From: Caulobacteraceae bacterium
GTDB lineage: Bacteria > Pseudomonadota > Alphaproteobacteria > Caulobacterales > Caulobacteraceae
Direction of reading: 5' to 3'
NCBI GenBank assembly: GCA_025352165.1
Contig: JANXTX010000154.1
Span: 1 to 41,475, forward strand
Length of the DNA: 41,475 bases
The notes under the pieces are model-generated. The model was not told the DNA's origin, made no database searches, and saw nothing but the letters and a program-made list of their open reading frames with translations. Shown piece by piece: positions 36,952 to 41,320 of the stretch. The position numbers and the translations under genes are program-made. Numbering within the stretch: the first letter of the stretch is position 1; the number at the start of each line of letters is the position of its first letter.

Positions 36952-38457
36952 TCAGGACCCTTCGCAACGGTAGTCGATGTTCGTCGATGCCAGCGAAGGG
37001 GTCGATGACGCGGTGACGGTGATTGCCGTAAGTGAATAATGGTAGCCGAAGCCGGCAATGGCAGTTTCCGCCGCGACGATGCAATGTGCATAGGATCTGT
37101 AGGCTATGTTGAACGAAATCGTACAGCTTGTCACGGTTCCGGTGCCCGCGGTTACCTGTCCCGCGGAATCGGTGGCGCTGCCGTCGATCGTGGCGCCAGT
37201 TCCGCAGGTCGAGACCACAGGCAAATTGCCGCCAGAGAATTCGTGCGCATTCGCGTCGAACGTATGGGCGGCGGTCGGCGAATTCTGACTGGAACTACTG
37301 CTCGATGAGGCGGGTGCGGTTCTGATGACGACGGCGCCGCCGAGGCCTTTGCCTGTCCCGACCCCACCGGTGAGCCGCAACGCGCCTCCCGCTTTGTCGG
37401 TGTTTCCCATCGCCGCGTTGTTTCCCTGCAGGTTCATGGCCACCCCCGGGCCCGCAGCATCTGGACCGAAGCCAATATTGCCAGAAAATGTGACGCCGCT
37501 CGAAAATGTCACGCCGTTGGAGAACACCTGCGCGCCGGTGAAAGTCTGTCCCGCGTCGGTCCGGGCGATGCTCGCGGACGTACCCGGAAAAGTCATCGTT
37601 TTCCCATCCGTGCCGGCGAAGGTCAGGCTGTTCAGGAATGCCGCGGTCTTGGGGGTCGTCCCACCGCCGATCTGAAAGCCTGTTGATAGCGCCGTCAGCG
37701 TCAGCCCGTTGACCGTCGAGGCCAGCGTCACCGGGCCGCCGATCGCGGTCGAATTGGCGGAATTGCCGATGCTGACCGTCTGAGTGCAGCCGACGGCTGT
37801 GCAGATGTTGACCGCGTCATTGTCGGCGACGTCGAGATTGATCGCCCCGCCGGTGACGTTCAACCCGCCGCCGATCTTGGCCGCGCCTGCGGTCATCAGC
37901 GAGTAAAGGGTGGGGGGCGGACTGGTGCCGACGCCGCTGCCCGGAATCGGCGCCGGAAGGTAGAGCTCATAGAGGTTGGTGACCGTACGTGTGTTCGTGG
38001 CCGCCAAGGTCGCAGGCGGAAAGGAGAAACAGCCTTCCGACCCGACTGATCCGGTTGCGGATGTGTCGGTGCAGGTGACGCCAGGCCCGCCCAGCTGCAG
38101 ACCGTTGTTGCCCCATGAGGCCGCCGACAGGCTGCCGGCGGGCAGGATCGCGGTGGCGAACGGATCGTTGGCATTAAGGGTGGAAACCGGCCCAACGGTG
38201 CTGATCGAGAGGTTCGCGCCAAGGAAGATATCCTGCTCCACGGGGTACGGTCCGGACGGGTTCCCTTTAAGCGTGAGCGGTGGGCCGTTCACCAGCTTGG
38301 CGTTGGAGATCGCCCCCGCCGCCACGACGGGATTGGGATAGTACCCCGTCAGATCGCCGCTGGCGGTTAACGGCAGGGTCGGCGCGACCGACTGAGCGAG
38401 TGCGGATTCCACCGGGATCGAGGCTGCGGCAAGGGCGATGAGGGTGCGCCTGATCAT
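36952..38457 (-). CDS. Secreted phage tail-fibre-like protein of unknown function
   Basis: A 501-residue protein with a signal peptide (MIRRTLIALAAASIPVESALA). The start of the mature chain has TASGDLTGYYPNPVV, a variant of the GDLxGxYPNPxV linker common in tail-fibre and surface proteins. A long Gly/Thr/Ser-rich central region follows, with a GVTFSSGVTFSGNIGFG stretch near residue 320 and a Ser run near residue 382. The C-terminal part (ATDSAGQVTAGTGTVTSC and further) resembles the C-terminal domain seen on tail fibres and secreted proteins. No phage genes are around, so it is more likely a chromosomal secreted protein. The stop of the GH5-like gene is 10 bases upstream, so they are probably one operon. 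Confidence 0.75.
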   Translation of the reverse strand: MIRRTLIALAAASIPVESALAQSVAPTLPLTASGDLTGYYPNPVVAAGAISNAKLVNGPPLTLKGNPSGPYPVEQDIFLGANLSISTVGPVSTLNANDPFATAILPAGSLSAASWGNNGLQLGGPGVTCTDTSATGSVGSEGCFSFPPATLAATNTRTVTNLYELYLPAPIPGSGVGTSPPPTLYSLMTAGAAKIGGGLNVTGGAINLDVADNDAVNICTAVGCTQTVSIGNSANSTAIGGPVTLASTVNGLTLTALSTGFQIGGGTTPKTAAFLNSLTFAGTDGKTMTFPGTSASIARTDAGQTFTGAQVFSNGVTFSSGVTFSGNIGFGPDAAGPGVAMNLQGNNAAMGNTDKAGGALRLTGGVGTGKGLGGAVVIRTAPASSSSSSSQNSPTAAHTFDANAHEFSGGNLPVVSTCGTGATIDGSATDSAGQVTAGTGTVTSCTISFNIAYRSYAHCIVAAETAIAGFGYHYSLTAITVTASSTPSLASTNIDYRCEGS

Positions 38458-38466
38458 TTCGGTTCC

Positions 38467-39000
38467 TTAGAAATGGTTGCTCACCGTGGTGATGAAGTCT
38501 CCGCACGTGGATGACGCGGTGTTGTGGTAGTTGATCGTCATGCAGGAGTAGGTGCCGCCTTTCGGGATCCACGAGGAGGTTAGCGTTGCCTGATAGTAGG
38601 CCCCGTCGTCTCCGCTGGAACCGGAATTCGTGCCGTCCCACAGTGACATTGATCCGCCCTTGACATGATACACCCACACGAAAAATCCGATACCGAGGCC
38701 CTTGATCGTTCCTAACGTTTGATCCAGATACGTCAGGGCGTCGGGGGTGAGGGTGGGCAGGCCGACCTGATTGGCATAGACCGGCACCGCATATTGGTTG
38801 CTGAAGGCGATGGGGCAGTTCGTCAGCAGAGTACTCAGAAATGTCGATGTAAGCGCCACAGACCCGCCGATTCCAGGATAGGTGCAGGCCACACCCTGTT
38901 GGCTGCCATTCGGGTCGGGGTAATTGGGATAGGGCGTGACTCCCGTACTCGGGTAGCCGGTGTAGTTGAGGTTTATCGATATCGGCGCCTGGGGGGGGGC
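38467..39000 (-). pseudogene. C-terminal part of the GH5-like glycosidase, separated by a frameshift
   Basis: This frame continues the GH5-like protein once one base is added to the poly-G run at 38991-38999: it then reads PSPPPQAPISINLNYTG and joins without a stop. It carries late GH5 landmarks such as LGIGFFVWVYHVKGG and LWDG. The position expected for the nucleophile Glu reads VPVYANQVG, with Gln at 38767-38769. A stand-alone start (GTG at 38892) has no ribosome site, so this part is unlikely to be made on its own. It could be a sequencing error, a switch state or a decayed gene. Confidence 0.65.
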
Positions 39001-40196
39001 GACGGCAGGTTGAGGTTGACCTGCTGTACATAGCTGCCGAGTTCGAAGAAGTTAAAATTGGCGGCCCAGTTGCTTTGGTCCGGCATGGCGATGTTGGCGA
39101 TGGCGCGCGAATCCCCCGTCTTCGCGGGACTGCAGGAAAGGATCGTCTGCTGGTCGACCAACCGTATGTAGGGGCTGGCAAAGACGGTGCGGCAAAGGCC
39201 GGTCACCGCGGTATTGTCGAATTTGCCGGCCGGATTAAACCCATCGGTGGTCTGGATTGATATCGGCGTCGCGCCGGTGCTGAAGGCCGCGCTGGAGGTC
39301 AGAAGATAGGTCCCCAGCGGGGTGTAGTTGCCATTGACGTCGAGAATGGAACCTCCGGTATAGTGTCCGTACGTCGAGGGGCAGGTCATGGTCGGGGAAT
39401 TGTAGTCGCATTCGATCGTGACCCCGGAGGGGATGCCCGAGCCGCCGACCGCACTGAGGTTGTTGCCGGGCTCGCCGTTGGGGTAGCCGGTATTGCCGGC
39501 ATAGAGGAAGACGTTCCCACCCGCGATTTGCACGCACAGCACCTTTCCCGCGACGCCGCTCGGATTGCTCGTCGCACTGCACCCGGTAGACCCATCGTCC
39601 ACATAGCCGGTGAAATTATTCGGACCCGATGGATGCGGCTCGCTCAGCATCTCATAGTCGAAGATGTGCGGCGTTTTGCGAAACGTCTGGGCGACGAACT
39701 TCCACATCGCGTAATACTGATTGAGTAGGGTCTGGCTGTTGAAGAAGGCGCAGTTGCCGCCCGAGACAGCCAGATCCACCCAGATGCCGTTGGCGGCGGC
39801 GGCGTTGACCGCGCTTACTAGGTTCAGCCATTTGGTGGGATCGAGATAACCTCCATTTGGATTGTTCGGATCGTAGAAATCCTTAGTTGTATCGCCAGGA
39901 TAGATGGCGTCTTGGCAATACATGTTGTTCAGGAAGCCGAATGTTATCCGTACGGCCTTCGCAGGGTGAGTCGCGGGGTAAGGCGGCGACGCCATCTGTT
40001 GAAAGTCGGTCGGTATTACAGTCGTGACGATGTCATCGTTATAGCCGGTGGGAAGCCAGGCGTTGCGCGAGGTGTCGAGGAACTGGATGCCATTGATGGC
40101 GATCCTGTCGGGTACGACATAGGTCCAGGATCTGGCTGACTGCGCGAAACAGGGCGCCGCGGAAAGGATGGCGAGAATGAAAGCGACCATCCTCAT
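38973..40196 (-). CDS. GH5-like secreted glycosidase, N-terminal part, ends at poly-G frameshift
   Basis: A secreted protein of about 407 residues in this frame. It has a signal peptide (MRMVAFILAILSAAPCFAQ) and GH5-like features: FDYEMLSEPHPSG with a candidate acid/base Glu186, AVRITFGF, and NGIWVDLAVSGGN for early strands. The frame ends in a Pro/Arg tail just after the poly-G run, so the barrel would lack its last strands and second catalytic residue. The ATG at 40194-40196 overlaps the stop of the upstream gene by one codon edge (ATGA), indicating coupling. Possible substrates are beta-glucans, cellulose or mannans. Frame repair needs one extra G in the run. Confidence 0.72.
   Translation of the reverse strand: MRMVAFILAILSAAPCFAQSARSWTYVVPDRIAINGIQFLDTSRNAWLPTGYNDDIVTTVIPTDFQQMASPPYPATHPAKAVRITFGFLNNMYCQDAIYPGDTTKDFYDPNNPNGGYLDPTKWLNLVSAVNAAAANGIWVDLAVSGGNCAFFNSQTLLNQYYAMWKFVAQTFRKTPHIFDYEMLSEPHPSGPNNFTGYVDDGSTGCSATSNPSGVAGKVLCVQIAGGNVFLYAGNTGYPNGEPGNNLSAVGGSGIPSGVTIECDYNSPTMTCPSTYGHYTGGSILDVNGNYTPLGTYLLTSSAAFSTGATPISIQTTDGFNPAGKFDNTAVTGLCRTVFASPYIRLVDQQTILSCSPAKTGDSRAIANIAMPDQSNWAANFNFFELGSYVQQVNLNLPSPPPRRRYR
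38991..38999. repeat. Nine-base poly-G tract inside the GH5-like gene
   Basis: A run of nine G on the plus strand (nine C in the gene) marks the exact frame break. With ten bases the two reading frames join. Such tracts are prone to slippage in replication and to base-count error in sequencing. Confidence 0.9.
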
Positions 40197-40573
40197 TGTG
40201 AGATGAAGATCCCTGTAGCCCCGTTGACCGTGGTGGACGTGATCGAGATTGCATCGGAGGGAACCGTCGTGCCGGAGTTGCAGGGCAGGTTTCCGCCGGG
40301 CGGCAGCGGAATGCTGTTCCCCGTCACGCCAAGAGCAGGCGGCTGAGAGGTTCCAAAATACACCCACATCGTGTCTGTCGAAAGATTGTAGATCGTGCAA
40401 CCAAGTCGGGTGGAACTTGAGCCCATGCCGGTCGGTACTGAAAACGTGCCGGCGTTCGCGATCGTAAAGCTGATCTGGGTTGAGGCGGTAGCCGCATGTA
40501 CGTCTGCGGGGCAGGCCATCGCGATCATGGTTGCAACGCCGCCGGCGGCGGAAATCAAGTCAAAACGTGTCAT
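40193..40573 (-). CDS. Small secreted protein of unknown function
   Basis: A 126-residue protein with a signal peptide (MTRFDLISAAGGVATMIAMA, ending VHA near residue 27). The mature chain is Thr/Ser/Gly-rich with beta-strand pattern (TASTQISFTIANAGTFSVPTG), two Cys that could form a disulphide (LGCTI and LPCNS) and a Pro-rich turn (IPLPPGGNLPC). No family recognised. Its stop overlaps the ATG of the GH5-like gene, so it is the first gene of the secreted operon. The ATG at 40571-40573 has AGGA about ten bases upstream. Confidence 0.7.
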   Translation of the reverse strand: MTRFDLISAAGGVATMIAMACPADVHAATASTQISFTIANAGTFSVPTGMGSSSTRLGCTIYNLSTDTMWVYFGTSQPPALGVTGNSIPLPPGGNLPCNSGTTVPSDAISITSTTVNGATGIFISQ

Positions 40574-40632
40574 GGTGGCGTTTTCCTGACCATTCCCTCG
40601 ACGTTTTACTAGTTTCTCTTGGAGTGCGTGGA

Positions 40633-40638
40633 AGTCAA
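40633..40638 (-). promoter_or_regulatory. Possible -35 box for the secreted-protein operon
   Basis: On the minus strand TTGACT lies about 60 bases before the start codon of the operon's first gene. A clear -10 box at the right distance is not seen, so the call is weak. The upstream edge of this box sits two bases from the 12-G tract. Confidence 0.3.
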
Positions 40639-40640
40639 GA

Positions 40641-40652
40641 GGGGGGGGGGGG
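40641..40652. repeat. Twelve-base poly-G tract in the divergent promoter region
   Basis: A run of twelve G, the longest homopolymer in the window, lies between the minus-strand secreted operon and the plus-strand gene at 40765. It borders the candidate -35 box of the minus-strand operon. Its location fits a promoter-spacing switch or a local mutation hot spot. Confidence 0.9.
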
Positions 40653-40701
40653 CGGTTTTTAGAAAAATACCGAATTAATCTGTACTAATTGAATGTAATG
40701 A

Positions 40702-40730
40702 TTGACATTTAGGAAATGGGGAATTATGCG
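40702..40730 (+). promoter_or_regulatory. Possible sigma-70 promoter for the small secreted protein gene
   Basis: A perfect TTGACA at 40702-40707 is followed 17 bases later by TATGCG at 40725-40730, a weak -10. The start codon lies 35 bases further. The region is AT-rich compared with its surroundings, as expected for a promoter. Confidence 0.5.
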
Positions 40731-40764
40731 AGATCTGGTACGCTGAAAATATGAGGCATTTGAA

Positions 40765-41229
40765 ATGAAAATGTTTCGAGTCGCCGCGTTCGGAACGCTG
40801 CTCGTGATTGGCTCCGTAAGCGAAGCCACGGCCTACAGCCTGTCTCCAACGCAGACGAGTTTCACCTTGACTGGCGCCGCGGGAATTCTTTATGGTTCTT
40901 CATTCACGCAATGCCAGATAACCTTGACCGGAGTGATTGCCCGTAAAAGTAAGAATTCCTCAATACAGTCTATGGTCGGGAGTACGCCTTGCGCCGTATT
41001 TGCCGGAACAAATCTACCGTGGTCGCTGCGCGCGAAGACCGCCACGACGGCTCAAGTCAGCAATTTCACCTATACGGTACCTGGGAACGTATGTGGCCCG
41101 GTCATTATTCATCCGACCGTTGATGCCAGCGGCAATTGGACATTGCACTCAAGGAGTATAGGTACAACCTCCGTCTGCGTCTTTTCTGCCTATCTACAGT
41201 CCAGTCCCCCAGTCACAATTGTTCCCTGA
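40765..41229 (+). CDS. Small secreted beta-rich protein, PraB-like pattern
   Basis: A 154-residue protein with a signal peptide (MKMFRVAAFGTLLVIGSVSE, ending TAYS). The mature chain has FTLTGAAG, a Cys in FTQCQITLTG, then STPCAVFAGTNLPWSLRA and VCGPVIIHPTVDASGNW. This order of CxITLTG, C, LPW and C resembles the small secreted proteins called 'activator of alkane oxidation' (PraB), which are common in pseudomonads and alphaproteobacteria. That match is by eye and not sure. The ATG at 40765 has GAGG eight bases upstream. It is divergent from the secreted operon, with the poly-G tract between. Confidence 0.7.
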   Translation: MKMFRVAAFGTLLVIGSVSEATAYSLSPTQTSFTLTGAAGILYGSSFTQCQITLTGVIARKSKNSSIQSMVGSTPCAVFAGTNLPWSLRAKTATTAQVSNFTYTVPGNVCGPVIIHPTVDASGNWTLHSRSIGTTSVCVFSAYLQSSPPVTIVP

Positions 41230-41242
41230 AGCATTCGGGTAT

Positions 41243-41320
41243 CTGGCGACAGTGCATTCAATAGGCGGCGGAGCCTACCGCCTCGCCAATCTCGTCTGAC
41301 CCATCGGGTCCTGTCGCCAG
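41243..41320. terminator. Branched inverted-repeat structure between convergent genes
   Basis: CTGGCGACAG at 41243-41252 and CTGTCGCCAG at 41311-41320 are perfect inverted repeats. Inside them lie two smaller hairpins: AGGCGG/CCGCCT (41263-41268 with 41278-41283) and GACCC/GGGTC (41298-41302 with 41306-41310). Together they can fold as a three-way junction of 78 bases. It lies between two convergent genes, so a two-way terminator is the simplest role. No T tract follows the closing stem. Confidence 0.5.

Follow-up and report, generated by a model that had tools for sequence, protein, structure and literature searches.

Slippery runs such as a tract of 12 guanines (G12) can act as genetic switches, and the locus described here raises the question whether such a run, situated in the gap between two divergent transcription units, serves this role or may be simply neutral. 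The locus is located in a DNA stretch of 41,475 nucleotides from a Caulobacteraceae bacterium (hereafter the window), which represents the whole of contig C358 of a 4.75-Mb genome in 437 contigs. A sequence-only reading had proposed that G12 next to the promoter of a secreted operon, together with a second tract within a gene of the same operon (C9 on the coding strand), would allow control at both transcription and translation. The features concerned are summarized in Table 1.

Table 1. Positions of the tracts, genes and candidate promoter elements within the window.
Feature	Position	Strand	Remark	Basis
G12 tract	40641..40652	+	C12 on operon sense strand	sequence and run count
G9 tract	38991..38999	+	C9 on coding strand; frame-break point	run count and frame comparison
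First operon gene, 126-aa ORF	40193..40573	-		ORF; signal-peptide-like start by eye
GH5-like N-terminal frame, 407 aa	38973..40196	-	ends just past C9	
GH5-like C-terminal frame	38467..38991	-	174 codons plus stop	open frame; matches C-terminal parts of three paralogues
501-aa protein with DUF5907 repeat	36952..38457	-	last operon gene	family match; signal-peptide-like start by eye
TTGACT	40633..40638	-	possible -35 of leftward operon	putative, 2 bases from tract
A/T-rich stretch	40653..40674	-	abuts the G12 tract	UP-like match and dyad scoring, both chance-level
TTGACA-17-TATGCG	40702..40730	+	best promoter candidate of PraB-like gene, 9/12	putative, 49 bp beyond tract
PraB-like protein, 154 aa	40765..41229	+	divergent	NF041562 match

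The divergent gap between the leftward operon and the rightward PraB-like gene spans 191 bp (40574-40764), is bounded by the ATG of the 126-aa ORF on one side and that of the 154-aa ORF on the other, and harbors G12 as had been reported. The distance of two bases from a possible -35 box was likewise exact, as the minus strand reads, in this order, A/T-rich DNA, C12, the dinucleotide TC, TTGACT and 59 further bases up to the operon ATG. G12 is the sole run of at least 10 in the window, and the next-longest G or C runs are those previously named, one of 9 and four of 7. With regard to the secreted operon, the reading held in that the genes are arranged in a row as in an operon and open with stretches resembling signal peptides. 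By eye, such starts were present in all three leftward genes and also in the PraB-like gene, suggesting that the operon encodes exported proteins with a role outside the cell; exported products are the clients of many known phase-variation systems. A single transcript for the three leftward genes is predicted from their spacing, the start of the GH5-like gene overlapping the stop of the 126-aa ORF. A phage origin of the operon was considered and set aside with little support from PHROGs, where nine out of ten proteins gave no match at E 0.01 and the remaining one, a small protein of genome G013 (see below), matched one phrog without assigned function.

The rarity of 12-base runs in such GC-rich DNA was supported to a degree that depends on the null model. 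Dinucleotide shuffling of the window produced a G12 in 4 of 100 trials. Against the single run of at least 12 observed, 0.055 and 0.015 were expected at orders 0 and 1, and 0.0005, 0.0011 and 0.0007 at orders 2, 3 and 4, the conditional models being derived from the window sequence after removal of both tracts. By homopolymer length, the tract is thus exceptional enough for a simple-sequence contingency locus at orders 2 to 4 (0.0005-0.0011 expected) and less clearly so under the lower-order nulls. In the genome as a whole, four runs of at least 12 were observed, one of them at a contig end, compared to 0.054 expected at order 2 and 6.3 at order 0, and 7.3 runs of at least 9 were expected at order 2. 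The genome runs among the matches listed amounted to 59, with 37 of 8, 16 of 9, two of 10 and three of 12, besides one at a contig end that measures at least 17; these counts were merged by hand from 100 listed matches out of 105 overlapping ones, and a second count implies one further run of 10 and none of 12. As the observed numbers of runs of at least 9 and at least 12 exceed the order-2 expectation, the run-length tail is heavy, a pattern that growth by slippage would give. This heavy tail is a property of the genome as a whole, beyond the G12 locus alone.

The place of G12 was compared to that of other long runs. Within its own genome, 14 of 22 listed runs of at least 9 were intergenic and eight were located in genes as called heuristically; with G12 left out, 13 of the 21 other runs examined were also outside called genes. 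The calls were made by a codon-score script whose training set consisted of 13 long frames from the window and which missed the PraB-like gene and probably truncated a gene on contig C391, and frame scores suggest that a run on contig C218 may be coding, so that 14 of 22 is an upper figure. The other 12-base runs of the genome occupy places without evident link to secreted genes; of the two internal ones, the first has a toxin-antitoxin-like pair on one side and another ORF on the other, and the second is flanked by TIR-domain and phosphatase-like genes (names by eye). Runs of at least 10 occurred in 13 of the 16 genomes of the genus, its own included, and in the other genus genomes 12 of 18 such runs examined were outside called genes, mostly beside genes without evident secretion link (names by eye). 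Since most long runs examined in its own genome and in the genus are intergenic, the place of G12 is ordinary. The unusual feature is the pair of long runs within one operon. The two are 1.64 kb apart, and the chance of a neighbor that near is about 1.5%, given at least 23 runs of at least 9 in 4.75 Mb (hand arithmetic, post hoc). Among the runs in genes, five besides C9 and a pair on contig C138 are located inside called frames that continue past them. The C138 pair consists of two G9 runs (L094 5043-5051 and 5811-5819) in a TonB-receptor-like gene (named by eye) that adjoins two PraB-like genes, and the frame is kept through both.

The second tract was indeed found in a gene of the same operon, and at C9 a real frame break occurs with both halves matching paralogues. 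The frame opening at 40196 stops at 38973, and the other frame from C9 ends 9 bases before the next gene. The upstream part scored 74, 71 and 45 bits against the N-terminal parts of the paralogues on contigs C404, C108 and C312, and the downstream part 45, 69 and 75 bits against their C-terminal parts, given as bits instead of E-values as the database comprised five proteins and composition statistics were off. The halves match the corresponding halves of paralogues from the same genome, indicating that one gene is split exactly at C9, which is the only frame lesion in an otherwise open GH5-like gene. The GH5-like protein thus reads as cut short in this assembly. Judged from this one assembly, the split may represent a switched-off state, a mutation that has become fixed or a miscounted run, and polymerase or ribosome slippage at a C9 tract of fixed length would yield the full GH5-like protein too.

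The catalytic nucleophile of GH5 enzymes is a glutamate. The corresponding place is occupied by Gln in the window half at 38470-38991 on the minus strand and in all three paralogues, as positioned by alignment of the C404 protein to endoglucanase chains along a weak stretch (i-Evalues 0.4-3.3); of the three chains shown, Glu is found in two and Gln, perhaps engineered, in 7vt4. Against the GH5 model PF00150, the N-terminal half from the window scored 13.5, below the gathering cut-off of 23.5, which the paralogues C404 (61.4) and C312 (38.2) pass. The Gln at the nucleophile place suggests that the family of four aligned copies is a non-hydrolytic, perhaps sugar-binding relative of GH5. Relatives of the GH5-like protein were detected in one of 299 family genomes, namely its own.

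The promoter assigned to the operon was then scored. For TTGACT, the -10 candidates are GAAACT (spacer 16) and ACTAGT (spacer 19), each matching in 3/6 positions to give 8/12 for the whole promoter, and a spacer of 17 gives less than 7/12. A match of 9/12 in operon direction has an odd spacer of 15 and is located far upstream at 40749. A strict sigma-70 scan of 40560-40780 on both strands identified no promoter (0 found, 0.3 expected from shuffles). G12 is therefore accompanied by a presumed -35 hexamer with poor -10 only; C9, by contrast, is located within a reading frame at its break. The A/T-rich stretch, a possible UP element, matches the UP-element consensus in 10/14 positions, which is at chance level for its composition (P 0.67, resampling). 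As a separate candidate, an operator dyad at 40653-40672 was rejected, with 7/10 pairs and P ~0.4 by first-order resampling; in the genome it had seven matches per strand with up to two mismatches compared to 12 for the control, and a search of the gap for inverted repeats yielded none.

Across 60 genomes of the genus, family and order as well as 299 family genomes, no close orthologues were found. Also single-protein scans of genome_contigs and viral_contigs with the PraB-like and GH5-like proteins, which reach close relatives only, and of plasmids with the PraB-like protein yielded no relative. The 126-aa protein was found in two of the 60 genomes and, with a two-row profile, in four of the 299, and the DUF5907 protein in three of the 299. 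A distant likeness of the 126-aa protein was seen to ORFs of two family genomes (G027, G066). Elsewhere in the window, an MlaE-like permease has its best plasmid-borne relatives in sphingomonads, at 48-49% identity, no more than a hint at an alphaproteobacterial host.

Two related loci bear on the role proposed for G12. Within the same genome, contig C312 carries a paralogous cassette composed of genes for a 130-aa protein, a GH5 protein and a DUF5907 protein, followed by a convergent PraB-like gene, and it contains no G run above 6. In genome G013 of the same genus, a related operon encodes a small protein 30% and a DUF5907 protein 35% identical to those of the window, and a C11 run on the operon sense strand is located upstream, at the contig end (C315:1-11). 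The order on this contig is C11, a 105-aa ORF detected in G013 alone among the 16 genus genomes, the small-protein homologue, a 132-aa ORF, a long protein and the DUF5907 protein. C11 is separated from the homologous gene by about 450 bp with an ORF in between, no shared upstream sequence was noticed, and the long protein did not match the GH5-like protein of the window (E 0.63). With 10 runs of at least 10 in 2.7 Mb, a given operon would have such a run in its upstream 500 bp with a chance of about 0.2%, rising to about 1% when six cassette loci are considered (hand arithmetic, post hoc). Recurrence of the upstream tract in G013 is suggestive but weak.

In the mechanism considered, G12/C12 would be a slippage-prone tract just upstream of the presumed -35 box of the leftward operon, and C9, located within the second gene, would superimpose on/off control at translation; the promoter, the variation in length and the effect on expression are inferred. 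A dual switch of transcription and translation through the two tracts is plausible as a hypothesis. That G12 is a promoter tract of the sabA or nadA kind is held tentatively, as a reading with somewhat less than an even chance of being right. Counted in its favor were the rarity at orders 2 to 4, the 2-base distance to TTGACT, the C9 neighbor at a frame break, the exported-looking products and the C11 of G013, and counted against it were the C312 cassette without tract, the poor -10, the empty strict scan, the chance-level dyad and UP match, the ordinary place and the weakness of the G013 parallel. The fullest version is a two-layer contingency operon in a GC-rich bacterium, in which a poly-C rheostat beside the -35 would set transcription of a secreted module (the small, the GH5-like and the DUF5907 repeat protein) and a poly-C switch would be located in the nucleophile-less GH5-like gene, with poly-C likewise ahead of the related G013 operon; this version appears unlikely.

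The promoter-tract reading and that of a neutral run are about equally likely. In the latter, which is as tentative, the run would have grown by slippage in one of the weakly constrained gaps of the genus, TTGACT would be its neighbor by chance, and the break at C9 would be an independent frameshift that arose recently in one copy out of several related ones. This would agree with the wide occurrence of runs of at least 10 among the genus genomes, with the predominance of long runs outside called genes there and in its own genome, with the C312 cassette lacking a tract, and with the GH5-like relatives elsewhere in the genome. However, that one operon holds two of at least 23 runs of at least 9, and that the sole frame break coincides exactly with one of the two, is more coincidence than neutrality predicts, and the possible recurrence in G013 also speaks against it.

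Considerably less probable is an error of assembly or sequencing, by which the true run would be shorter, longer or mixed and the break at C9 a miscount in a fragmented assembly. Among 30 runs of at least 10 fetched from the genus, nine were located no more than 15 bases from a contig end (L036, L069, L071, L072, L073, L082, L084, L100, L101) and one more borders N bases; the nine indicate that assemblies break at such runs, and the genome at hand is itself in 437 contigs. However, both runs of the window are located inside the contig. Moreover, the end runs read outward as G in five of nine cases and as C in four (by eye), so that a one-sided artefact of dark cycles fails to account for them.

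The PraB-like gene at the other side of the gap shows a family-level likeness to NF041562 (E 1.4e-17), by which this part of the sequence-only reading held, but at 63.9 bits it is below the equivalog cut-off of 120, and it is therefore regarded as a relative and not filed as PraB (alkane oxidation protein activator). Its protein has 10 matches in its own genome, itself included, and matches in four of the 60 genomes, its own counted. The ten genes are located on contigs C358, C312, C20, C124, C138 (two), C98, C326, C395 and C297, and those of C358, C312, C20 and C124 adjoin genes for large proteins whose architecture is GH5-like or otherwise suggestive of secretion. Just past the gene in the window, a repeat of about 74 bp (41237-41310) also occurs at C223:313-386 (96%) and C166:2878-2951 (93%). 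It is quite improbable that G12 is a tract of fixed length that serves the PraB-like gene, or both genes, by spacing or delimiting the divergent promoters: the best promoter match in the gap with a spacing of 16-18 is that of the PraB-like gene, but the upstream gaps of the nine other PraB-like loci all lack a G run of at least 8 (for C297, over about 140 bases upstream of the match), the C98 locus having a C7 about 260 bases upstream.

If real, the G12 locus belongs to an already known kind of slippage tract, and it resembles most closely, in layout only, that of sabA of Helicobacter pylori, for which T-tract variants with multiphasic promoter output have been described (PMC4081817). Common to both are an intergenic homopolymer beside a -35 (here presumed), a location ahead of a gene encoding an exported protein and A/T-rich DNA beyond, whereas the tract described here consists of G/C, its promoter is putative, and variation in its length and in promoter output is a prediction (PMC4081817). 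In nadA of Neisseria meningitidis, a repeat upstream of the promoter alters the spacing of repressor operators (PMC2791445). As in the TAAA tract of nadA, the repeat is located upstream of the core promoter and not between -35 and -10; unlike there, where a tetranucleotide is flanked by NadR operators, no operator is supported here (PMC2791445). At the Bordetella fim promoters, the length of a C-stretch influences transcription, with lengths of 13-18 for fim3 and 10-15 apparently for fim2 (PMC1891110). The window shares with fim2, fim3 and fimX a cytosine run of similar length in a promoter region (here presumed) of a gene for an exported protein, but tract polymorphism across strains has been demonstrated there and is a prediction here (PMC1891110).

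The literature on switching by slippage among the matches listed concerned mostly host-adapted pathogens. Thin searches of the open-access literature, by title and abstract start, found no homopolymeric phase-variation tract in alphaproteobacteria and no paper on slipped-strand phase variation in Sphingomonas. If true, the two-layer reading would extend the mechanism to a GC-rich organism beyond the host-adapted pathogens and so broaden its known range.
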